Part shown: positions 12,019 through 25,477 of the stretch, in pieces
How positions within the stretch are numbered: the first letter of the stretch is position 1
Layout of the letters: the number at the start of each line of letters is the position of its first letter
Notes under the pieces: model-generated
Database searches by the model: none
Seen by the model: the letters and a program-made list of their open reading frames with translations, nothing else
Told to the model about the DNA's origin: nothing
Program-made: the position numbers and the translations under genes
Origin: Colwellia sp.
GTDB lineage: Bacteria; Pseudomonadota; Gammaproteobacteria; Enterobacterales; Alteromonadaceae
DNA: 64,000 nt
Direction of reading: 5' to 3'
NCBI RefSeq assembly: GCF_013215345.1
Contig: NZ_JABSOV010000002.1
Span: 1-64,000 of the forward strand

Positions 12019-14823
12019 ATGACTTTGCTTTGGATACCCTTGTTATCCTTACTTGGCAGTATTATTTCTTCAATGACGGGTAAATTAACACGTAATCAAT
12101 CTACTGGTTTGACGTTGTTAATGCCAATCACCGCATTATTAATGACGATTAGCTTAGCGCCTGCTGTTTTCTCTGGCGAAGTTATTCGATCAACATTTTC
12201 CTGGATCCCTTTACTAGGTATAGATATCGCTTTTCGTTTAGATGGCTTAGCGCTGCTGTTTGTATTTATGATATTAGTCATTGGCATATTAGTTATTTTT
12301 TATGCCCGTTATTACCTCAGTAGTAATGACTCTATGCCTAAGCTTTATGCCTATCTGATGTTATTTATGACGGCGATGCTGGGTATTGTTATGTCAAATA
12401 ATGTCATCCAGCTGTGGTTCTTTTGGGAACTTACCAGTATTAGCTCATTTTTGTTAATTAGTTATTGGTGGCATAAAGCAGAAGCGCGTAATGGCGCAAT
12501 AATGGCTTTAACTATAACCGGTGGTGGTGGATTAGCATTATTAGCTGGTTTGCTGTTGTTGGGGAATATCGTTGGTAGTTATAATTTAGATATTATTTTA
12601 GCCAGCAGAGATATTATTCAAGCACATGACTGGTATGAAGTAACCTTAATATTAATACTACTTGGCGCTTTCACTAAGTCAGCACAATTTCCTTTTCATT
12701 TTTGGTTACCACATGCGATGGCTGCACCAACACCGGTCAGTGCTTACCTGCATTCGGCCACTATGGTCAAGGCAGGGGTTTTCTTATTAGCGCGTTTTTA
12801 TCCGGCTTTAGCGGGTACTGATATATGGTTTATTATTGTCAGTTTAACCGGGCTAGCGACATTATTGTTTGGCGCATATGTAGCGTTATTTAAACATGAC
12901 TTAAAAGGTTTATTAGCCTACTCGACCATTAGTCATTTAGGTTTGATCACCTTACTCTTTGGTTTGGATACCAAGCTTGCGGCAGTAGCGGCGATATTCC
13001 ATATAATCAATCACGCAACTTTTAAAGCCTCGTTATTTATGGCAACCGGTATTATTGACCATGAAACCGGTACCCGTGATATGCGAAAAATCAATGGTAT
13101 GTGGAAATTTATGCCTTATACCGCTACGTTGGCAATGGTTGCGGCAGCGGCGATGGCTGGTGTGCCACTGTTAAATGGTTTCTTATCGAAAGAAATGTTT
13201 TTTGCTGAAACTTTACATCAACAGTTGCTTGGCTCCATGTCTTGGCTTATTCCAGTTCTTGCTACTATTGCAGGGGCTTTTGCGGTGGCTTATTCAGCAC
13301 GCTTTATTCATGATGTTTTCTTTAATGGCGACCCTATTGATTTACCCAAACAACCCAGTGAGGCACCAAGATACATGCGGTTGCCAATCGAAATACTGGT
13401 TGTTTTATGTTTAGTGGTGGGCATAGTGCCAAACTTTGTTATCGACGACATTTTAAAGTCAGCTTCCTTTGCTGTACTCGGTGGCTATGTACCTGAGTTT
13501 GAAGTTTCTTTATGGCATGGTTTTAATTTACCACTATTGATGAGCGCGATAGCAGTAAGCGGTGGTTTGTTGATGTATACCCAGCGACATTATTTGTTTC
13601 AATTTCATGCTTCATTGCCGTCTTTGAACGGTAAAAAACTGTTCGATAATAGTATTAGTGCGCTGACTAAATGGTGCCAAGTTAAGATACACACTATAGA
13701 AAATGGCTCTTTACAACGCTATTTAGTGTTGATGTTTGTCGTGGTGTTATTTTTTGCTGGCTGGCCATTATTTGAAATGAATCAGTTAAGCGGGCAAAAA
13801 CCCCTGACTCCGGTTGATGTTCATAATGCGATGGGGGCAGCATTATTAATGATAGGTGCAATTAGTACCGTGATTTGGTATCGCACACGAGTGATATCAT
13901 TACTGATGCTCTCAGTCGTGGGTTTAATGGTGTCTATCGCGTTTACTCGCTTCTCAGCACCCGATTTAGCCTTAACCCAATTAACCGTTGAAGTAGTCAC
14001 CGTTATTTTACTTATGCTGGCATTGTTTTTCTTACCACAGAACTCGCCAAAAGAATCTAGCTCTATGCGTGTGTTGCGTGACCTAGGCATATCTGCCGGT
14101 TTAGGCATTGTAATTGCGAGTATTTGTTATGCATTAATTACCCGTCCACTTGAGTCAATCTCAGACTTTTTCTTAGCAAATGCTAAAACAGGTGGCGGTG
14201 GTACTAACGTTGTTAATGTTATTTTGGTGGACTTCCGTGGCTTTGATACCCTAGGTGAAATTTGTGTATTAGGTATTGCCGCGCTGGGTATTTACAAGCT
14301 TTTAATTAACTTACCGTTATATATTCCTGCTACTGATAGTGAAGGGCGGCCTTGGGCGAAAGAACGCTACCCGGTGTTATTGGCTAGTATTTCTCAATCC
14401 TTACTACCGTTAGCATTACTGGTATCGTTTTATATTTTCTTACGTGGCCATAATATGCCCGGTGGTGGATTTATCGCTGGCTTAGTGACCGCAGTAGCCT
14501 TTATTTTGCAGTACATAGCGCATGGCTCAAACTGGATTGCTGAGCGCTTAACCATAAATTATCGCAAAATTATTGCCTCAGGCATTGCTATTGCGCTATT
14601 GACTGGTGTTGGCAGTTGGTTCTTTGGCAGACCTTTCATGACTACTTGGTTTGAATACTTTGATATTCCTTTTATTGGCGAAATTGAACTTGCCAGTGCC
14701 TTGGTATTTGATATTGGTGTTTATATTACGGTTGTCGGCTCTACCTTAATGATTTTGGCAAGTCTCGGTAAATTAACTGCAAATGAGCCGGCTAATGCTC
14801 CTAGTAAAGAGGTAAATATTTAA
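12019..14823 (+). CDS. mrpA: Mrp-type Na+/H+ antiporter subunit A, fused to subunit B
   Basis: This is the largest subunit of the multi-gene cation/proton antiporter, related to NuoL of complex I. The 934-aa protein is almost entirely membrane segments. The N-terminal two thirds carries the proton-translocation domain, with [16 protein letters not shown], the [23 protein letters not shown]-like segment (here [16 protein letters not shown]) and [11 protein letters not shown]. The last roughly 150 residues match MrpB ([19 protein letters not shown]). An A-B fusion marks the six-gene (A'CDEFG) form of the operon, as opposed to the seven-gene Bacillus form. Stop and start codons overlap with mrpC (TAATG), so the operon is translationally coupled. 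Confidence 0.96.
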
Positions 14824-15191
14824 TGGAATTACTTTACGCATCCAGCGTTGGCGTTTTAGTGTCTTGTGGCGTATTTTTAATTTTACGCTCTAGAACTTTC
14901 CCTGTTGTCTTAGGGTTAACTATGTTTTCTTACGCGGTTAATTTATTTCTTTTCTCTTCTGGACGACTTAGCCTTAACCAAGCTGCGGTACTTGGCACCA
15001 GTACAGAATATGCTGATCCACTGCCGCAAGCTCTAGTGTTGACCGCTATTGTTATCGGTTTTGCCATGACAGCCTTTGTGGTTATTTTAGCAATCAGAGG
15101 GCGAACAGATTTAGGCAACGACCATGTAGATGGTCAGGTGCCCGACACAAAAAACCACAACAACGACAATAATAACAAGGTTAAAGTATGA
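14823..15191 (+). CDS. mrpC: Mrp-type Na+/H+ antiporter subunit C
   Basis: MrpC is homologous to NuoK. It is 122 aa with three predicted membrane helices (ELLYASSVGVLVSCGVFLIL, VVLGLTMFSYAVNLFLF and ALVLTAIVIGFAMTAFVVILA). The family hallmark DPLPQALVLTAIVIGFA is intact. The C-terminal tail is hydrophilic and ends in an Asn/Lys-rich low-complexity stretch (KNHNNDNNNK). It overlaps mrpA by one base and mrpD by four (ATGA), so its expression is coupled within the operon. Confidence 0.95.
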   Translation: MELLYASSVGVLVSCGVFLILRSRTFPVVLGLTMFSYAVNLFLFSSGRLSLNQAAVLGTSTEYADPLPQALVLTAIVIGFAMTAFVVILAIRGRTDLGNDHVDGQVPDTKNHNNDNNNKVKV

Positions 15192-16720
15192 CCCAGCATT
15201 TAGCCTTTTTACCTGTCTTATTGCCTATGTTGGCAGGTGTTATTTTATTAACGTCACTTTTTGGTAAGAATATAACCAGCAGAAGAGTTACGTCTGTAGT
15301 ACTAAGCACAATCACCTTTTTAGTTTCATTGGCTTTATTACTAAAAGTTCAAGCCGATGGCACTCAAGTTTATGCAATCGGTGAATGGAGCGCACCTTTT
15401 GGTATTGTGCTGGTAGCTGATCCGTTATCTACCTTGTTAGTAAGTTTAACTGCCTTACTCGGTCTAGTATGTGTTTTATATGCCAGTGCGGGAGATGATG
15501 AAAAAGGCAGCTTCTTTCATCCTTTAGTGCACTTTTTAATTTTAGGTGTAAATGGTGCATTTTTAACCGGTGATATATTTAATTTATTTGTATTTTTTGA
15601 AGTGTTACTTATTGCCTCGTATGCATTATTAATGCATGGCGGAGACAAAAGAAATACCCGCGCAGCCTTACACTATGTGATTTTGAACCTGGTCGGCTCG
15701 GCAATATTTTTGATTGCTCTGGGTGTGCTATACGGTGTCTTAGGTACACTTAATATGGCTGATATGGCGCAGAAAGTGGCACTTCTACAAGGTGATGATG
15801 TCTATCTAGCTAAGATAGGTGGACTGTTGTTACTGGTGGTGTTTGCTTTAAAGGGCGCTTTGTTACCGCTACATTTATGGTTACCCAATACTTACGCTAC
15901 CGCTATGCCTGTTGTCGCGGCATTATTTGCCATTATGACAAAAGTCGGCGTTTACTCAATGATGCGTGTTTATACGCTAATTTTTGGCGATGAAGCCGGT
16001 GAGTTGAGTCATATGGCGCAAACTTGGATGTGGTGGTTCGCAATGGCAACTATTGCAATGGGCGGAGTGGGTGTCTTAGCGAGTAAAGATTTAAGGAAAT
16101 TAACCGCCAATTTGGTGATTGTATCGGTAGGTACTTTAGTGGCGCTGGTTGCCGTACAAACCGTTGAAGCCAGTTCTGCCGCTATCTATTACTTAGCTCA
16201 TTCAACGTTAGTTACTGCAGCACTATTCCTGTTAGCTGATTTAATTGGCCGTCAACGTGGTGAAGTTGCTGACCGTATTACTGCCGGTCCTCCTGTGGCT
16301 CAGCCAAGGTTGTTAGGTGTTTGCTTCTTGGTTGCTGCTATTGCAGTAATAGGTATGCCACCATTGTCTGGCTTTATTGGTAAAGTATGGCTGCTGAAAG
16401 CAACCTTAGATGCTGAATATACTTTTGTTTTTTGGCCGCTTTATTTATTGGTAAGTTTAGCAATATTGCTTAGTGTGGCTAAAGCTGGCAGTACTGTTTT
16501 TTGGCATCATCAAGACTCACTCATAGAAAGTAATGCAACTGAGAGTGCTGAGCAAAGCCGCGTTCACCCTGCACAGCTAGCGGCATTGATTATTCTTATT
16601 GCTGGTGCGCCATTGATGACTATTTTTGCTGGACCATTAAGTGAGTATGCAATTGGCGCAGCTAGCCAATTACATGACTTTAACAACAATATTAACGTTA
16701 TCCTTTCAGGAGGTCATTAA
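15188..16720 (+). CDS. mrpD: Mrp-type Na+/H+ antiporter subunit D
   Basis: MrpD is the second NuoL/M/N-type proton-translocating subunit, with about 14 membrane helices over 510 aa. Conserved motifs are FNLFVFFEVLLIASYALL, containing the membrane Glu; KGALLPLHLWLPNTYATAMPVVAALFAIMTKVG; and LAHSTLVTAALFLLAD. The C-terminal helices run to about residue 490. It overlaps mrpC by 4 bp and mrpE by 1 bp. Size is normal for the family (about 490-510 aa). Confidence 0.95.
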   Translation: MTQHLAFLPVLLPMLAGVILLTSLFGKNITSRRVTSVVLSTITFLVSLALLLKVQADGTQVYAIGEWSAPFGIVLVADPLSTLLVSLTALLGLVCVLYASAGDDEKGSFFHPLVHFLILGVNGAFLTGDIFNLFVFFEVLLIASYALLMHGGDKRNTRAALHYVILNLVGSAIFLIALGVLYGVLGTLNMADMAQKVALLQGDDVYLAKIGGLLLLVVFALKGALLPLHLWLPNTYATAMPVVAALFAIMTKVGVYSMMRVYTLIFGDEAGELSHMAQTWMWWFAMATIAMGGVGVLASKDLRKLTANLVIVSVGTLVALVAVQTVEASSAAIYYLAHSTLVTAALFLLADLIGRQRGEVADRITAGPPVAQPRLLGVCFLVAAIAVIGMPPLSGFIGKVWLLKATLDAEYTFVFWPLYLLVSLAILLSVAKAGSTVFWHHQDSLIESNATESAEQSRVHPAQLAALIILIAGAPLMTIFAGPLSEYAIGAASQLHDFNNNINVILSGGH

Positions 16721-17268
16721 TGCGGTCACAAATGCGCTTAGAAGCAAAATTTAGATGGCTACCGACTCCTTTAAGGAGCCTGTTATTATTTATTGTCTGG
16801 TTATTATTGAATAACAGTGTCTCACCAGGGCATATTGTCTTAGCTGTTATTTTAGCCATAGTTATTCCATTGGCGACTAGCCCATTTAGGACTAAGCAGC
16901 CATTAATTCTAAAACCCGGTTTGGCGTTTCGTCATTTAATGCTGGTTCTATATGACATCATTACGGCCAATGTTCAGGTTGCTATTTTGATATTAGGTCC
17001 TAATAAAAAATTGACCCCTGGGTTTGTTAAGGTACCGCTAGATTTAACACATGATATGCCTATTACTATTTTGGCGAGTACAGTGTCATTAACACCGGGC
17101 ACGGTCAGTGCTGAAGTGTACCCTTGGCGAGAGTGTTTAACCGAAGGTAAAGAACCAGAAGAACGTTTTTTACTGATACACGTGTTAAACCTTGAAGATG
17201 AACAGGCCTTAATAAAAACAATTAAGCAACGTTATGAAGCGCCTCTTAAGGAGATATTCCAATGCTAG
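16720..17268 (+). CDS. mrpE: Mrp-type Na+/H+ antiporter subunit E
   Basis: This 182-aa subunit belongs to the MrpE/MnhE family, with two or three N-terminal membrane helices and a cytoplasmic C-terminal domain. Family marks are PITILASTVSLTPGTVSAEV and a following HVLNLEDEQALIKTIKQRYE. It lies between mrpD (1-bp overlap) and mrpF (7-bp overlap). The subunit stabilises the complex; unlike A and D, it has no complex I counterpart. Confidence 0.94.
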   Translation: MRSQMRLEAKFRWLPTPLRSLLLFIVWLLLNNSVSPGHIVLAVILAIVIPLATSPFRTKQPLILKPGLAFRHLMLVLYDIITANVQVAILILGPNKKLTPGFVKVPLDLTHDMPITILASTVSLTPGTVSAEVYPWRECLTEGKEPEERFLLIHVLNLEDEQALIKTIKQRYEAPLKEIFQC

Positions 17269-17531
17269 AAACTGTGATTTTAATTGTCTTTGCCATGATA
17301 GGTTTATCGTTATTATTAAATGTATGGCGTTTATTAATCGGCCCTTCTGTCCCCGATAGGATACTTGCACTCGATACTATGTATATCAATACCATTGCCT
17401 TGATCATCTTGTACGGCATGAGTATGGGCACGGCATTATATTTTGAAGCCGCGCTGTTAATAGCAATGCTAGGATTTGTCAGTACAGTAGCAGTATGTAA
17501 GTACCTGCTACGCGGCGATATTATCGAATAG
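17262..17531 (+). CDS. mrpF: Mrp-type Na+/H+ antiporter subunit F
   Basis: MrpF is an 89-aa small membrane subunit with three helices. The conserved loop GPSVPDRILALDTMYINTIALI is intact. It overlaps the end of mrpE. Its stop codon lies inside the first unit of a 12-bp tandem repeat that fills the gap to mrpG. Confidence 0.95.
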   Translation: MLETVILIVFAMIGLSLLLNVWRLLIGPSVPDRILALDTMYINTIALIILYGMSMGTALYFEAALLIAMLGFVSTVAVCKYLLRGDIIE

Positions 17532-17606
17532 ATAGTCGAATAGATAGCCGAATAAAAAACGAATAAAAAGACGAATGAAAATTCGAATAGAAAATAGAAT
17601 AGGAAC
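17524..17606 (+). repeat. 12-bp tandem repeat between mrpF and mrpG
   Basis: Six degenerate units built on CGAATAGATAG / CGAATAAAAA start at 17525, 17537, 17549, 17560, 17572 and 17584, with a weaker seventh (AGAATAGG) at 17596. The period is 12 bp except for one 11-bp step. The array includes the mrpF stop codon and ends at the ribosome binding site of mrpG. It holds several in-frame stop codons and codes for nothing. Confidence 0.85.
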
Positions 17607-17613
17607 TTAGCTC

Positions 17614-17946
17614 ATGATTGAATGGATTATTTCAATATTATTATTAATTGGTGGTTCTTTTGTACTGGTTGGCTCTATTGGTTTAGTGAAAATGCCTGAT
17701 TTTTTTATGCGCCTTCATGGTCCAACTAAAGCGACAACCTTAGGCATGGCATTATTGTTAACTGCTTCAATGATCTTTTTTAGCTCTACACAAGCAGGAT
17801 TTAGTGCTAAAGAAATACTTATCTCGCTATTTCTCTTACTAACGGCACCGATCAGTGGCTATATGATGATTAAAGCGGCCATTCATCATAAACTCGATAG
17901 TATAGATCGCACTAAAGGCATAGATAACATCGAAGATGATGTTTAA
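17614..17946 (+). CDS. mrpG: Mrp-type Na+/H+ antiporter subunit G
   Basis: MrpG is a 110-aa subunit with three membrane helices, starting IEWIISILLLIGGSFVLVGSIGLVKMPDFFMRLHGPTKATTLG; the MPDFFMRLHGPTKA segment is the family signature. It is the last gene of the operon and is separated from mrpF by 82 bp, unlike the overlapping genes before it. A GGAA ribosome binding site precedes the ATG. A terminator shared with the subtilase gene follows. Confidence 0.95.
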   Translation: MIEWIISILLLIGGSFVLVGSIGLVKMPDFFMRLHGPTKATTLGMALLLTASMIFFSSTQAGFSAKEILISLFLLLTAPISGYMMIKAAIHHKLDSIDRTKGIDNIEDDV

Positions 17947-18090
17947 TGTTTTGTAGCTTGTTGACTTATGGTAATCAAACTAGCGAATGTCAGCTAATAC
18001 TAAGTAATGTAAGCTAAAGTTAGGTAAGGCTAAGTATGAATAAGTACTTCTTAGTTTTGCCAAGTTAGCAGTCAATTTATTTTTGAAGAT

Positions 18091-18128
18091 AAAAAATCCC
18101 TAACAGTTTTAATTGTTAGGGATTTTTA
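18091..18128. terminator. bidirectional terminator between mrpG and the subtilase gene
   Basis: AAAAAATCCCTAACAG (with GTTAGGGATTTTT opposite) makes a long stem with T-tracts in both directions, between two convergent genes. Confidence 0.92.
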
Positions 18129-18197
18129 TTAGCGGCTACTGTTAGCCAGAGCATAGCTTGATAACAGTTATATTATTAAGCAGCTCTTAAGTAAAAG

Positions 18198-20693
18198 TTA
18201 AAAGTTAACGGTTACTTCATTTGAACATGCAGATGTTGCATCACAGATTTGGTAAATAAACTGGTTGCCATCTATGCGACGTTCACGGTCACGATAAATA
18301 CCCGCATTTTCAACGGTATCAATTTTTATACCATTACGGAAGATATCTACCATATCAGCTGTAGTACCTTGCCAAGTAATATCAACACGTAAGCGACCTA
18401 AACGAGATTTATATGCACGTTTAACCGCAGCTTCAATATTGGCTGATGATACACTTACCGACATAGTTTCGCTGCTGTTTAAGCCTTCACTATCAGTCAC
18501 GGTAAGAGTAACGTCATAGTTACCCGTTGCTGCGAAAGTATGCACAGGATTTTGTTCAGTCGATACTGTACCGTCACCGAAGTTCCAGTCCCAGCTAACC
18601 ATATCGTCATTTCTATCAGAGCTATTATCAGTAAAGGTAGCGGTTAGTTGTTCAGCTTCATAAGTAAAGCTAACCTCTGGTGCGCTCGGTAGTGCTTCAC
18701 CAAGACCAGTAATGGTAAGTGCCCAATTATTTAGTGTTCCGGTGTCAGCTGCCGCATTATCGCTAACAGTTAATACCCAGTCGCCAGTTGCTACTTCGCC
18801 ATTGAATGCAGCTGAACTAAAGGTACTATCGATGTTATCGTTGCTGCCACCTGAGCCACTGTGTAATGCTGCAGTACTACCTGCAGGAGAAGTTAACATA
18901 ACCGTTAAATCACCAATCCAAGTGTGAGTGATATTTACATAAATATCAGAGGCAAATACGGTAATATCATCGGAAACATTAATGCTTGACGTTATACCTG
19001 TAGCATCGTTGTCTGGAATATTAACAAGGGTGTCATTAGTGTAAGTAAACTCATTCAAACCTTGTGGGTTAACCATTAAGCGAACGGTAGATTCTTTGAC
19101 CAAATCACCACTGGTTGCTGTTACCGTAAAGCTATATTCGCCCCATTGTGTTTCAGCTGTGGTTGGCACTGTTAATTCAAATGTAGCTCCAGGCGTTGCG
19201 GTATCGGTTGATAGTGTTGCGCCACCTAATGAATCCGCTAAAGTTAGATTAACTTCGCCAGTCCAATCGGCAATTGAACCAACATCGAAACTGTAAATCG
19301 CTGTTTCGCCGGCTGTAATAACACTTGAACCAGGTGTTGGTGATAGTGTGAAGCCAGGGGTTGGATCGGCATTTTCAAGTGCACTTCTAACGTTTAAGCG
19401 TTTACCTGATACAGTTTTTCCGGCAAGTGCGGCGTTATCATCACCTGAGCTCATCAATAACGCTTTCATTTCAACTGCGCTTAGTTCAGGGTTCACTGAC
19501 CATGCTAGCGCTGCGGCACCAGTTACGTGTGGCGTAGCCATTGAAGTACCTGAAAAGGAAGCATAGCCACCACCTGGTACTGTTGATAGAATGTCTGAGC
19601 CAGGCGCACCTAAATCAACTGTGGTTAAACCCCACTGTGAGAAACCAGACATGTCATCAGTATGCGTTGTACTGGCGACGGATAGTACTGAGTCATGTGG
19701 ATAGCCAGAAGGATAGCTTGCTTGTGCATCATTGTCAGAAGCACTGTTACCTGCAGCTGCAACAAATAGAATATTCGCTTGTTCAGATGAAGTAATTGCG
19801 TCAGAAAGTGCTTGGCTAAAACCACCGCCACCCCAGCTATTGTTGGTTGCACGTACGTTTACACCATTATTTTTTAAATCAACAAAATAATCAATACAGG
19901 TTAAAGCATCTGAAAGGCTACCTGAGCCAGATGAATCAAGGAATTTACAGCCAATAATTGAAACATTGTGGTTAACACCAACAACACCTAAACCATTATT
20001 GCCTGTTGCACCGATAGTACCTGAAACGTGACTGCCGTGTCCTTGATCATCCATAGGATCACCAATACCGGTAATAGCATTGATACCATGAATATCATCG
20101 ATATAGCCATTACCGTCGTTATCAATACCATCACCTGCGATTTCTGCAGGGTTAGTCCAGATATTTGCCATTAAATCGGGGTGGCTATGATCAACACCAG
20201 TATCAATAACACCAACAATCACATCATGACTACCTGTTGAGATATCCCATGCTTCAGGCGCATCGATATCAGCATCTGCTACACCACCTGTTTGACCTGT
20301 ATTATTCATACCCCAAAGATCAGCGAAGCTAGTATCGTCAGGCGTTACGCTGGCAGTAACAATATAGTCAGGCTCTGCATATAACACCGCTGGATTTTTA
20401 CGCAGCTTTTCAAGGGCATTTTTTACTGAAACACCATTAAGGCTGAATTTCGCTATGCGGCCTTTTTTTAAGTTGCGATATTTATCATCTATTTCATCAT
20501 TGTTTAAGTCCGAAATTCTTGCTTGGACAATGCTACGAGCATTGCGTCGGTCAAGTTTAGATGCAGTGTCTTTATAGACAACAATAATAGAGTCTGACTT
20601 ATAACTAGGGCTTTGTGCTGAGCTGAGCTCTATTGATGCATTCGCCAATACAGGTATTAACGCTAATGTTAGCGCTGATAATTTTGCTTTCAT
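18198..20693 (-). CDS. secreted subtilisin-like serine protease with P and PKD domains
   Basis: This is an extracellular S8 family protease of 831 aa. Domains in order (ORF-track numbering): signal peptide to about 27; inhibitor-I9-like propeptide, about 35-118; catalytic domain with Asp168 (VIDTGVDHSHPDL), His223 (GHGSHVSG), the oxyanion Asn (NNSWGGG) and Ser388 (GTSMATPHV); then a proprotein-convertase P domain (ITHTWIGDLTVML; NNWALTITG), a PKD domain (WDWNFGDG; YDVTLTVTDS), and a C-terminal beta module (IFRNGIKI). P and PKD domains commonly mediate substrate binding or help with maturation. I prefer the start MKAKLSAL, preceded by GGAG, over the ATG four codons upstream. Cysteine pairs are few. 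The target is unknown; the curli operon begins about 800 bp away, divergently. Confidence 0.95.
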   Translation of the reverse strand: MKAKLSALTLALIPVLANASIELSSAQSPSYKSDSIIVVYKDTASKLDRRNARSIVQARISDLNNDEIDDKYRNLKKGRIAKFSLNGVSVKNALEKLRKNPAVLYAEPDYIVTASVTPDDTSFADLWGMNNTGQTGGVADADIDAPEAWDISTGSHDVIVGVIDTGVDHSHPDLMANIWTNPAEIAGDGIDNDGNGYIDDIHGINAITGIGDPMDDQGHGSHVSGTIGATGNNGLGVVGVNHNVSIIGCKFLDSSGSGSLSDALTCIDYFVDLKNNGVNVRATNNSWGGGGFSQALSDAITSSEQANILFVAAAGNSASDNDAQASYPSGYPHDSVLSVASTTHTDDMSGFSQWGLTTVDLGAPGSDILSTVPGGGYASFSGTSMATPHVTGAAALAWSVNPELSAVEMKALLMSSGDDNAALAGKTVSGKRLNVRSALENADPTPGFTLSPTPGSSVITAGETAIYSFDVGSIADWTGEVNLTLADSLGGATLSTDTATPGATFELTVPTTAETQWGEYSFTVTATSGDLVKESTVRLMVNPQGLNEFTYTNDTLVNIPDNDATGITSSINVSDDITVFASDIYVNITHTWIGDLTVMLTSPAGSTAALHSGSGGSNDNIDSTFSSAAFNGEVATGDWVLTVSDNAAADTGTLNNWALTITGLGEALPSAPEVSFTYEAEQLTATFTDNSSDRNDDMVSWDWNFGDGTVSTEQNPVHTFAATGNYDVTLTVTDSEGLNSSETMSVSVSSANIEAAVKRAYKSRLGRLRVDITWQGTTADMVDIFRNGIKIDTVENAGIYRDRERRIDGNQFIYQICDATSACSNEVTVNF

Positions 20694-21489
20694 TTTTTGC
20701 TCCATGTTTTAATTAATATCATGTTTAAAGTATTTTTAACCTAGGGGGTAATTACTAGGCAGTATGCTTTTATTTTAACTTTTCTACTTACTATGGATTT
20801 GTGCAACGTCATTACTTTAATCATAAAAATAGGCTTGTTTCTATAGAAAGCGGATAAACACGACTTTTTCATGACTTTAAGTGGCGTTTCTAATGGTTTT
20901 TACTACTTTTTTACTACTTTTTATTTAGTAGTTATTAGAGTGACTTTACTAGTCCTTTTGTATTGGTTTTTGATTTTCAATCTACAATTCTCTTTAGGGA
21001 TTTTGTATGTTTATCGTTTATCTATCTGTTTTAATAGCTTTAAATTGGAATACTAAAATAGGGTGATATTTATTGTTAACAGAATGTTGTAGAGTTTTTA
21101 ACGCAACGAACTAAAGCTAACTTAGCTTATGTTTGGATTGTTTAGGTTTGTGGGGAGAATCTAGATGAAGTGCTTATTTATAATTGTTTAGTGATTGTGA
21201 AAAGCCGAAATAACACCAATTAAGTTAGGTGTTATATCCATCGATAAGGTCAGTTGGCTACAGTGATATAGATAAAGGTATTTACCATAAAACCTTTGCA
21301 TAACACGACAAAATTATCTTAATAATACTACTTGTTTTTTTAACCATACCATTGGTTATTGTTGTTAAAACTACTATGGAAAGATGAAAACGACACTAGC
21401 AGTTAAAACCATAAACTGCTTATCTATTAAAAATAATCTTTGTGAGTTAATTGTTTGCTTACATAAAACAAAAAGAATAGGGATATATT
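20694..21489. other. 796-bp AT-rich intergenic region upstream of the curlin gene
   Basis: I find no convincing gene here. The 61-aa ORF at 20871-21056 is a hydrophobic low-complexity translation without a ribosome binding site. Visible structure: a TTTTTACTAC repeat, twice plus a related third unit, at 20897-20931; and a palindrome TAACACC/GGTGTTA with a 10-base loop at 21211-21234. The region separates the divergent subtilase and curlin genes and presumably holds both promoters. Its size fits a heavily regulated curli promoter. I could not place a convincing -10/-35 pair. Confidence 0.5.
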
Positions 21490-22944
21490 GTGAATTTTAA
21501 TAAATCAATAATCACTTGTGCTGTTGTTATGGCACTCGGTCTAAGTCAAACGGCTTTTGCGGCTGAAGCAGCGAAAGAAGAAAAATCAGTAGCTGCTATT
21601 CAATCAGATCTGATGGTTAATGCCTTAGGTAATGTGATTATCTTGTCACAAACTTCTAGCGAAGGTTCAAATGTTGGTAATGAAACGACTATTTTTCAAG
21701 AAGGTGATGTAAACGGCACGGACTTTACTGTAATAGGTGAAGGTAATGTCGCTGAAATCATTCAAATAGGCACTGACAACCTAGTCGTTGGTACTTTTAA
21801 TGGCAATAATAATGAGCTCTACATTGCACAAGATGGTGAAATTAACGAAACTGAAAATAACGTCACAGGTGATGAAAACAGCGTTGAAGTGACTCAGCTA
21901 GGTGTGGGTTACTTAGGTTTTGGTAATCGTGCGATCAACGAAATAGTTGGTGATGGTAATGAAGTTGTTATTGACCAAGGTGAAGGCGGTCATTGGGCTA
22001 TTAACTCAGAAATAACGGGTTCTAATAATACTATTGATATTGTGCAAGATGGTGAATGGAATGAGAGCTACTTAACGAGTATTGTCGGTGATGACAATGC
22101 CATTGAAGTGACTCAAGATGGCTATTGGAGTGTTACAACTATCTCTTCGATTGAAGGTGATGCCAATGAGTTATCGATTGAACAAGAAGGCGATCGAAAT
22201 AAGATTACTATTGCTTCAATTGAGGGCGATGAAAAAGAAATTTCTATCGACCAAGAAGGTAATGACAACATCGTTGAATCTTCGATATATACAGGGATGT
22301 CTAACTCTGTAGATGTCATGCAAAACGGTGATGGCAACAGTGCCAGCTTTGATGCCATTGGTGATGATAACGACTTTAATTTCATCCAAGTAGGCGACAG
22401 CAATATTAGTTACATTGCTACTATTGGTATGAATAATGAGTACAGCTCTGTGCAAGTAGGTGACTTAAACGAAAGCCATGTGATGAACTTTAATGGTGAT
22501 GATAACGACATTGACGTGATGCAATCAGGTAGTGAAAATGTTGTTGTTGTGCAAGCTTCAGCTGAGAATAATGAGTTACTTACCAGCGAAAATGATATCG
22601 ATATATCTCAAACAGGTTTTGCTAATGACGCTGTAGTTATGTTGAGTACGATTATTGATAGTAATGCAAATACCATTGATATTGATCAAACAGGTGAGCT
22701 GAACTCATTAGATATTTTAGTTGAAGGTAGCAACCATCAAATTGGTATCGAGCAAATAGGAGATGAAAACTTAATCACTGGCGAGGGTGGTGACACCATG
22801 CTCATCGGTGGCAACAATATTACCTTTAATATCAGCCAAATAGGTAATGGCAACATTGTTGAAGGCTCCTTTATCAGTGATTCAGGTGTAGTTTCTATTA
22901 CCCAACTAGGTGATTGGAATACTGCTGTTATTGTTCAGCAATAA
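21490..22944 (+). CDS. csgA: long acidic curlin (CsgA/CsgB-like amyloid subunit)
   Basis: This is a secreted amyloid-fibre subunit. The 484-aa protein has a signal peptide (cleavage near AFAAEA), then about 18 tandem curlin repeats of 22-23 residues built on G-x-x-N-x-[IV]-x-[IV]-x-Q-x-G-x-x-N (for example GDANELSIEQEGDRN). Two repeats are disturbed by insertions of about 10 residues. E. coli CsgA has five repeats in about 150 aa, so this is roughly three times longer. The mature protein is very acidic: Asp and Glu fill many of the variable positions, with only about six Lys/Arg. The start codon is GTG, with AGGGA 7 bases upstream. csgE, csgF and csgG follow. No separate csgB nucleator or csgC is present in the window, so it may serve both roles. 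Confidence 0.93.
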   Translation: MNFNKSIITCAVVMALGLSQTAFAAEAAKEEKSVAAIQSDLMVNALGNVIILSQTSSEGSNVGNETTIFQEGDVNGTDFTVIGEGNVAEIIQIGTDNLVVGTFNGNNNELYIAQDGEINETENNVTGDENSVEVTQLGVGYLGFGNRAINEIVGDGNEVVIDQGEGGHWAINSEITGSNNTIDIVQDGEWNESYLTSIVGDDNAIEVTQDGYWSVTTISSIEGDANELSIEQEGDRNKITIASIEGDEKEISIDQEGNDNIVESSIYTGMSNSVDVMQNGDGNSASFDAIGDDNDFNFIQVGDSNISYIATIGMNNEYSSVQVGDLNESHVMNFNGDDNDIDVMQSGSENVVVVQASAENNELLTSENDIDISQTGFANDAVVMLSTIIDSNANTIDIDQTGELNSLDILVEGSNHQIGIEQIGDENLITGEGGDTMLIGGNNITFNISQIGNGNIVEGSFISDSGVVSITQLGDWNTAVIVQQ

Positions 22945-22967
22945 TTGCAATTAATAGGTATTTGAAT

Positions 22968-22990
22968 AAGGGGCTTATGGCCCCTTTTTT
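22968..22990 (+). terminator. terminator/attenuator between curlin gene and csgE
   Basis: AAGGGGC and GCCCCTT pair around a 5-base loop (TTATG), followed by T residues. It ends 10 bases before the csgE start codon. It probably stops most curlin transcripts while letting some read through into csgEFG. Confidence 0.85.
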
Positions 22991-23000
22991 CTATCATAAT

Positions 23001-23393
23001 ATGACTAAATATATATCTTCCTTGTTGGTAGCTATTACCCTGTTATTTACTTCTTTTTGCCATGCGACTAGCGAAGTCGAAATTGGTGGTTTGCTACTTG
23101 ATAATACGAAGAGCCGTTTAGGTCATGATTTTTATCATGAGTTCAGTCAGTTATGGCGAGATATTCCTAATACGCAAGGTATCAATGTGCAAATAATTGA
23201 GCAACTTGTACCAAGGGCAGGTACTAGACTTAGCCTTAGGCTGAATGGTCGAACCATTTATGTTACCCATTTTGGCCGCCGGCAAACACCTGTTAAAGAA
23301 AAAGTAGAACAAGCGATATTTATATTGATTGATGCCATGAAAAGGTCTCAATATCAACAGGATAGTCTTGATATGGCTGGAGATGGTTGGTAG
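23001..23393 (+). CDS. csgE: curli specificity factor CsgE
   Basis: CsgE is the periplasmic adaptor that caps the CsgG secretion pore and directs curlin subunits to it. I start at MTKYISSLLVAI, giving a 130-aa precursor with a signal peptide ending near CHA; E. coli CsgE is 129 aa. The core VEIGGLLLDNTKSRLGHDFYHEFSQLW is characteristic. The ORF-track start, 29 codons upstream, lies within the curlin coding end and the terminator hairpin and is not credible. It slightly overlaps the longer csgF reading frame and is 29 bp from the preferred csgF start. Confidence 0.93.
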   Translation: MTKYISSLLVAITLLFTSFCHATSEVEIGGLLLDNTKSRLGHDFYHEFSQLWRDIPNTQGINVQIIEQLVPRAGTRLSLRLNGRTIYVTHFGRRQTPVKEKVEQAIFILIDAMKRSQYQQDSLDMAGDGW

Positions 23394-23422
23394 TCATTAA
23401 TAGAATCAGAAAGGTAGTAATA

Positions 23423-23839
23423 ATGAAGAAGTTAATTTTGGCGTTAGTGATTAGCATTAGCGTAAGTGGTTATACATCGGGTTCTGAATTGGTTTACAAA
23501 CCCATTAACCCAAGTTTTGGTGGCAGCCCATTAAACGGCAATTTTTTGTTAGGTAAAGCGCAAGGCCAAAATAAACATAAGGCACCGCAAAGTACGAAAA
23601 GCTTTGAGGAAAAAGTAGCCAATGCCATTGAACGTGCAACTATCAGCGATATTGTCCGAAAATATAAAGATACAGTATTAGGTGAAAGTGCGGTCATTAA
23701 TAATGCTGAAGATAGTACTTTTATTAGTGGCGATTATCAAATTGATATTTTATCGTCTAATAGTGACACTATCACTATAGAAATCACTGATTTATTGACA
23801 GATAAAGTGACCATAATTGAAATACCGAAGTTTGGGTAA
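23423..23839 (+). CDS. csgF: curli assembly protein CsgF
   Basis: CsgF sits at the outer-membrane CsgG pore on the cell-surface side and couples secretion to fibre nucleation. The preferred start MKKLILALVIS has AAGG upstream and gives 138 aa, the same length as E. coli CsgF. After the signal peptide comes the family N-terminus ELVYKPINPSFGGSPLNGNFLL, the part that inserts into the CsgG channel. The C-terminal part (DYQIDILSSNSDTITIEITDL) is the surface-exposed domain. csgG begins 16 bp after the stop. Confidence 0.94.
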   Translation: MKKLILALVISISVSGYTSGSELVYKPINPSFGGSPLNGNFLLGKAQGQNKHKAPQSTKSFEEKVANAIERATISDIVRKYKDTVLGESAVINNAEDSTFISGDYQIDILSSNSDTITIEITDLLTDKVTIIEIPKFG

Positions 23840-23855
23840 CTCAGTGAAAAACTCA

Positions 23856-24644
23856 ATGAAAATGCCAATGAAAATAATTATGCTAGTAGGCTTACTCAGC
23901 TTATTATCGGCCTGTAGCGTACTTGAATCGACCAGTCGCCTCATTCCGCCAGACAAGTCGTTAGCGACAAAGATGATGCCATTAGAAAGCTTTAAGGAAC
24001 TTAAGGCGCTACCTAAACCTAAAGGCGCAATACCTGTTTCGGTTTATGCTTATCGAGACCAAACCGGTCAATACAAACCACAAGCCAATGTAAGCTCATT
24101 CTCTACCGCGGTAACACAAGGGGCAACATCTATTCTGATGCAAGCATTAAGCGATTCTGATTGGTTTTTACCGGTGGAACGTGAAGGTTTACAAAATGTA
24201 TTAACTGAGCGAAAAATTACCCGTGCGGCAAATAAAGCTAACAAAGCCACAGAACATATTGAATTACCGCCATTAACTTCGGCAAAAATACTCCTTGAAG
24301 GCGGTATTATCAGTTATGACTCTAATACCAGGACCGGTGGCTTTGGTGCGGAATATTTCGGCATTGGTGCTTCTGAGCTTTATCGTGAAGATCAAATAAC
24401 GGTTTATCTGCGTGCCGTTGACGTGCGCACAGGACAAGTACTGGTGTCAGTATCAACCAATAAAAAAGTATTGAGTCAAGAAATGCGTGCTGGTTTTTTC
24501 CGCTATGTTAGTTTTAAGCGCTTAGCTGAAGTTGAAGGCGGCTTTAGTGACAATGAGCCTATGCATGTTTGTGTGCAACAAGCGATTGAAAAAGCCATTA
24601 CCGAATTAGTGATTAAAGGTATAAAGAGAAACGTTTGGCGCTAA
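23856..24644 (+). CDS. csgG: curli secretion channel lipoprotein CsgG
   Basis: CsgG forms the nonameric outer-membrane pore for curlin export. The N-terminus has a lipoprotein signal with lipobox LLSAC, and the mature part contains PVSVYAYRDQTGQYKP, the SSFSTAVTQGATSILMQAL helix and WFLPVEREGLQNVLTERKI, all typical of the family. With the start MKMPMKII the precursor is 262 aa (E. coli 277). A GTG four codons upstream, or the ORF-track ATG inside csgF, are alternatives; no start has a strong ribosome binding site, which suggests coupling to csgF. A terminator shared with the convergent regulator follows. Confidence 0.94.
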   Translation: MKMPMKIIMLVGLLSLLSACSVLESTSRLIPPDKSLATKMMPLESFKELKALPKPKGAIPVSVYAYRDQTGQYKPQANVSSFSTAVTQGATSILMQALSDSDWFLPVEREGLQNVLTERKITRAANKANKATEHIELPPLTSAKILLEGGIISYDSNTRTGGFGAEYFGIGASELYREDQITVYLRAVDVRTGQVLVSVSTNKKVLSQEMRAGFFRYVSFKRLAEVEGGFSDNEPMHVCVQQAIEKAITELVIKGIKRNVWR

Positions 24645-24772: not shown

Positions 24773-25477
24773 TTAATTGATAGTAACGGCATAATTTAAT
24801 GTCCAACTAATCAATTCGATGCGATTTCTGGAACTGGTTTTTCGAAAAATACTGTAGAGGTGGGTTTTTACCGTATTAGGGCTGATGTGCAGCTGATCGG
24901 CAATTTCTTGATTTTTGGCTCCCGATGAAACCAAGCCAATTATGGTGTTTTCTCGTCGGGTAAGCCTAGGTAAGTGTGTGAGTCTCTTTGGGTCGAGAGC
25001 TGAGAGCAAGCTCGGTCGTCTCTCTTTTTTAAGTAGCTCATTCAATGCACTATTCATCGTTTCTCGCTTAAACCAGCGCTCATTTTTTTGTAGTTTGGTG
25101 ATACCACGTAAGATAATATCAAGACGATCATTGAGGTAAAAAATACCGGCAAGGCCTGATAATAACAACTTCTTTTCATCGAATTTATTTTTTGGCGCAT
25201 TAAAAAAAATAGTTCGTACGTTATGTATTGTTTTTTGTATGGCTAAGGGAATAACATCACCCCAAGTGCTGTGATATAAATCAATAAAAATTAAATTATA
25301 GCTTCTGCTTTGGCTGTCATCAGGTAATGATTTTTCTACTGTGGTATCAATGTTACAGGTTTGCACTAAACCAGTAAAATGATGAATTGAATGATGAAAC
25401 TCTCCTGTATTGATATTATTTTCGCTACCACTGATTAAAAAAAAGGCCTTGAGTTTAGGCGTATTAATTAAGCCCAT
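24773..25477 (-). CDS. csgD: CsgD-like LuxR-family transcriptional regulator
   Basis: This is a 234-aa regulator with a C-terminal LuxR helix-turn-helix (RLTRRENTIIGLVSSGAKNQ, then HISPNTVKTHLYSIFRK). The residues after it (RNRIELISW) resemble CsgD of enterobacteria (KNRTQAVSW), as does the middle segment GIFYLNDR. The N-terminal half is a degenerate receiver-like domain: IFIDLY stands where a phospho-acceptor loop would be, as in CsgD, which is not controlled by a standard kinase. It is convergent with csgG. The likely target is the curlin promoter 4 kb away; this is inference from family and location. GGAAG precedes the start by 9 bases. Confidence 0.87.
   Translation of the reverse strand: MGLINTPKLKAFFLISGSENNINTGEFHHSIHHFTGLVQTCNIDTTVEKSLPDDSQSRSYNLIFIDLYHSTWGDVIPLAIQKTIHNVRTIFFNAPKNKFDEKKLLLSGLAGIFYLNDRLDIILRGITKLQKNERWFKRETMNSALNELLKKERRPSLLSALDPKRLTHLPRLTRRENTIIGLVSSGAKNQEIADQLHISPNTVKTHLYSIFRKTSSRNRIELISWTLNYAVTIN

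Follow-up and report, generated by a model that had tools for sequence, protein, structure and literature searches.

A marine-type curli operon without csgB in Colwellia and other Alteromonadales lineages

In E. coli, CsgB is regarded as required if curli are to be attached to the cell. Several arrangements of the curli genes have been described. In Alteromonas and Pseudoalteromonas the genes form a csgBAEFG operon, and csgD lies beyond its downstream end on the other strand (PMC3521004); a csgABEFG operon has been reported in P. tunicata (PMC2536512). CsgA homologs are known to reach 529 aa and 22 repeats, and csgC is confined to the Enterobacteriales and Aeromonadales, CsgC being therefore not expected in the order considered here (PMC3521004). 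Another long acidic CsgA, that of Pontibacter (R15.5), has been investigated as a subunit that forms fibres (PMC10192328; PDB 8c50).

The operon analysed here belongs to a Colwellia sp. genome (GCF_013215345.1) and lies in a window of 64,000 nucleotides, which is the whole stretch of DNA that was analysed (contig NZ_JABSOV010000002.1, positions 1 to 64,000). Among marine-type curli (biofilm amyloid fibre) operons it is an ordinary one, of the csgBAEFG type of the Alteromonadales minus csgB, and its unusual feature is the missing csgB, not its layout, length or acidity. The original prediction had presented the layout and the length of the curlin as special; both the csgBAEFG order with a downstream csgD and CsgA proteins of such size were already on record (PMC3521004).

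Operon layout and a linked protease

Profile matches bear out the predicted order of a single long curlin gene followed by csgE, csgF and csgG on one strand, with a convergent CsgD-like regulator at the end. The csgA gene (21490..22944, plus strand), which opens with GTG, encodes a 484-aa curlin-repeat subunit of the secreted type that characterises curli and the type VIII secretion system (PF07012, E 2e-51, 10 stretches). It is followed on the same strand by csgE (23001..23393; PF10627, E 2e-29), csgF (23423..23839; PF10614, E 2e-24; 138 aa) and csgG (23856..24644; PF03783, E 9e-82), the last encoding the outer-membrane secretion channel; all three profiles exceed their gathering scores, so that the CsgG channel, CsgE and CsgF are present. 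The csgE start is probably the ATG at 23001, common to relatives, from which the protein counts 130 aa. A separate minor curlin acting as nucleator, the CsgB of the two-curlin csgBAEFG type, does not accompany these genes. Convergent with csgG is a gene for a CsgD/VpsT-like LuxR-family regulator (24773..25477, minus strand), of which the HTH is above cut-off (GerE, E 5e-16), the receiver domain scores 26.1 bits against a cut-off of 27, and the best NCBIfam match is CsgD (E 3e-24), below its own cut-off.

Between csgA and csgE there is a terminator-like hairpin (22968..22990, plus strand; AAGGGGC-loop-GCCCCTT plus a T tract). Most of the loci compared have a G+C-rich hairpin in this gap, with stems that differ in sequence, and this recurrence suggests, but does not prove, an attenuator by which mRNA for the subunit would outnumber that for the secretion genes. 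No known RNA family was found in the operon above a gathering score.

The divergent upstream neighbour of the operon encodes an S8 (subtilisin-family) protease with the catalytic D, H and S motifs, a P-domain and a PKD domain (18198..20705, minus strand; PF00082, E 2e-51; PF01483). Of 80 loci that had enough sequence, 77 carry such a protease gene immediately upstream of the first curlin gene and divergent from it, and it occurs in csgB-bearing and csgB-less loci alike. Among 198 relatives, the protease (E 1e-100 or better) and csgF occur together in 30, csgF only in 10, the protease only in 3 and neither in 155 (Fisher p 1e-23, a value that ignores kinship among the relatives); the protease thus largely comes and goes with curli. 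Two genomes (G007 and G037) hold extra divergent pairs of curlin and S8 protease outside their csgEFG clusters (L138:4503-9721; L140:2059-7263 and 14136-19312), with curlins of roughly 700 aa and proteases about 44% identical to that at 18198..20705. In a curli-less genome, G004, a remnant of the protease from its C-terminal end (79% over 96 aa) lies directly against a remnant of csgD (64% over 94 aa), and nothing of csgA-csgG stands between them (L139:8076-8658). A role in curli processing or turnover would be a guess; if the protease does act on curli, it would represent a naturally occurring enzyme for their processing or degradation. No paper on a curli-linked subtilase was found in the open-access literature.

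Absence of csgB and its recurrence

In nearly all loci fetched from family relatives, csgB (about 160 aa) lies directly upstream of csgA. The original prediction had remarked that no csgB was visible, and this holds genome-wide as well as in relatives with complete genomes. A search for a second curlin (QxGxxN) gene found none anywhere in the source genome, a draft of 257 contigs rated 95.5% complete, and a CsgB profile, for which 16 relatives supplied the sequences, matched no protein other than the long curlin in nine genomes of the Colwellia clade (the source genome and eight Colwellia/Cognaticolwellia relatives). The same profile detected no CsgB in the genomes of like layout from Pseudoalteromonas (16) or in the one such MAG; over these 26 csgB-less genomes its sole match outside long curlins was a weak one (40 residues, E 5e-4) in one Pseudoalteromonas genome. 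As controls, the full-length CsgB of related csgB-bearing genomes was recovered at E 1e-47 to 1e-66, and the divergent CsgB of Shewanella and Parashewanella at E 1e-22 to 1e-29. A CsgH profile gave no match in the source genome, nor in the control genomes. The csgB-less members include Colwellia sp. 75C3, Cognaticolwellia aestuarii, many Pseudoalteromonas and the MAG. A search of the open-access literature turned up nothing on curli lacking csgB in either Colwellia or Pseudoalteromonas.

It could be argued that csgB is present but was missed, through divergence or because the source assembly is an incomplete draft in many contigs. This is very improbable, since csgB is also missing where completeness is rated at 99-100%, including a genome in a single contig, and the profile reaches as far as Shewanella CsgB. 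Finished or complete genomes are among the csgB-less ones (G046, 1 contig; G034, 20 contigs, with a CsgG 98% identical). Moreover, the site that csgB occupies in relatives is sequenced here and empty: it is a 784-bp intergenic region (20706..21489), wider than in csgB-bearing loci, in which tblastn found no csgB remnant upstream of csgA (best E 0.12). This gap has a median width of 382 bp in csgB-bearing loci; in csgB-less loci the median rises to 593 bp for Pseudoalteromonas and to 772 bp for the Colwellia clade, which would fit an in-place removal of csgB.

On a tree built from CsgE, CsgF and CsgG, the csgB-less operons fall in three places: the Colwellia/Cognaticolwellia clade, the MAG, and a Pseudoalteromonas clade that lies within a set of csgB-bearing species. 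Parsimony requires three changes in csgB presence, and a single clade joining both main csgB-less groups was rejected (AU p 0.022, quick tree). Because the surrounding lineages carry csgB, the changes are read as losses and not gains; the tree implies that csgB was lost about three times, and the gene seems to have been lost in the Colwellia/Cognaticolwellia lineage and in at least two others. The nearest csgB-bearing relative is placed differently in the two trees; in the full tree it is locus L062, where part of csgB is preserved at the edge of the contig. Elsewhere, two genomes of one genus (g9) differ in this respect, one having a csgB-less curli operon (L044) and the other a csgB-bearing one (L046).

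The single curlin as CsgA

The subunit had been predicted to hold about 18 curlin repeats in 484 aa, and 18-19 were indeed counted when degenerate ones were included, 15 of the motifs being strict QxGxxN, with a spacing of mostly 22-23 aa. In one close relative the curlin has 507 aa and one added 23-aa repeat, and repeat number therefore changes. AlphaFold2 gave a confident model (pLDDT 85.7, pTM 0.83) with about two strands per repeat over residues 48-483. An all-strand model that spans the whole repeat region would suit the continuous beta-solenoid raised in the original prediction, but a Foldseek search of this model against solved structures gave no significant match (8c50 at E 0.13, TM 0.2), so that the solenoid geometry is a prediction. 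In sequence, the Pontibacter R15.5 CsgA of PDB 8c50 matches the curlin at E 1e-22.

The mature curlin has a pI of about 4.05 and 1.3% K+R, a composition that had been proposed to set it apart from E. coli CsgA and to suit salty, cold water. The CsgA of csgB-bearing relatives is similarly charged, with a net charge per residue of -0.13 compared with -0.15 in the Colwellia clade, and with 2.1% K+R compared with 1.5%. Acidity as a special feature was accordingly rejected: since length and acidity are both common to csgB-bearing CsgA, the argument from salt and cold gives the 484-aa curlin nothing special.

The curlin aligns end to end with the CsgA of csgB-bearing relatives, both terminal regions included, and by sequence comparison it is the ortholog of CsgA. 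As the same terminal regions occur in CsgA proteins that have a CsgB beside them, the suggestion that nucleation proceeds through divergent N- or C-terminal repeats is unsupported. The alignment also bears on the idea that the long curlin is a fusion of CsgB and CsgA carrying its own nucleator, which might be entertained since one curlin gene stands where relatives have two. Such a fusion is hardly credible and was rejected: the length is unchanged, the CsgB signature (SPLSLSL, EQTFxVHQIGNEMVVNITQY) was not seen at the curlin ends, and the mean CsgB-profile score of the Colwellia-clade curlins (140.5 bits) is no higher than that of CsgA from csgB-bearing loci (153.8 bits).

Within the Colwellia clade, dN/dS is 0.07-0.16 for csgA and 0.03-0.19 for csgE, csgF and csgG. 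The operon is therefore maintained by purifying selection and is probably functional. E. coli that lacks CsgB releases its secreted CsgA in unfolded form (PMC10192328), and loss of csgB could accordingly mean unattached or scant fibre. It has to be considered that all fibres from this operon are loose, unattached or badly nucleated, the loss of csgB being a step in the decay of curli in the genus, where csgF is above cut-off in only 7 of 39 genomes; a relative, G004, bears a deletion scar, with protease and csgD fragments and nothing between. Decay is nevertheless an unlikely account, as nine members have kept csgA, csgE, csgF and csgG whole and under purifying selection, and the loss of csgB is old, being common to two genera, and recurs in Pseudoalteromonas.

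Probable nucleation without CsgB and comparison with described systems

All components bar csgB are present and syntenic, and homopolymeric curli nucleated without CsgB is the best reading of this locus, with a probability of roughly 0.72. Unfolded CsgA would leave the cell via CsgG, aided by CsgE and CsgF, and would fold outside into a beta-solenoid; such solenoids would then stack end to end into a single-subunit fibre. Without CsgB, the first solenoid would have to arise by spontaneous nucleation of CsgA, either at the secretion site or on CsgF, and we infer that tethering would likewise proceed without CsgB. Self-nucleation of the curlin is plausible: a chain of 19 repeats would offer stacking edges that are nearly those at the tip of a fibre, and might get by with less assistance than the CsgA of E. 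coli, which has five repeats.

It has also to be weighed whether CsgF took over nucleation, having been remodelled in the Colwellia clade so that the single CsgA binds to it and is templated by it directly. On the branch where this clade lost csgB, the length is 1.17 for CsgF, 0.54 for CsgE and 0.19 for CsgG, giving an F/(E+G) ratio of 1.61 against a median of 0.59 (rank 5th of 87 branches). The neck/linker segment diverged there, the conserved neck FQESLERAYINKMVREITDLAFGE having become VANAIERATISDIVRKYKDTVLGE and the loop after it having been shortened, as seen in the alignment, while the csgB-bearing L062 retains the ancestral form. However, the csgB-less Pseudoalteromonas clade keeps an ancestral CsgF with no acceleration, four other branches have a higher ratio, one of them a Shewanella branch that keeps csgB, and the structure model of CsgF is poor (pLDDT 62). 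Remodelling of CsgF as a general consequence of csgB loss was rejected since it is absent in Pseudoalteromonas, and together with the Shewanella branch this makes the fast CsgF a lead only; a takeover by CsgF is rather doubtful.

Nucleation without CsgB, the preferred reading, can be extended to the order. Tentatively, marine Alteromonadales may have repeatedly done without CsgB, a very long CsgA forming homopolymeric curli, a rebuilt CsgF seeding and tethering CsgA directly in the Colwellia clade, and the linked subtilisin-family protease being an added, undescribed curli part. Natural lineages with intact csgA, csgE, csgF and csgG and no csgB offer a direct comparative test of self-nucleation by a long curlin or replacement of CsgB by CsgF.

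Compared with the described systems, the locus is closest to the csgBAEFG operons of Alteromonas and Pseudoalteromonas, sharing with them a single operon with csgE, csgF and csgG, a downstream csgD on the opposite strand, a long CsgA and, presumably, the lack of csgC (PMC3521004); it departs from them in the missing csgB, as do the whole Colwellia/Cognaticolwellia clade, 19 Pseudoalteromonas loci and one MAG. With the csgBAC and csgDEFG operons of E. coli it has in common homologous CsgA repeats, CsgE, CsgF, CsgG and a CsgD-like regulator, whereas E. coli differs in having two operons, a five-repeat CsgA, the nucleator CsgB and the chaperone CsgC. The CsgA R15.5 of Pontibacter korlensis, with 15.5 repeats and a predicted acidic surface grid, is likewise a long many-repeat curlin matching in sequence; its host lineage is distant, Pontibacter being a member of the Bacteroidota, and the 484-aa curlin of Colwellia has more repeats, several of them degenerate.
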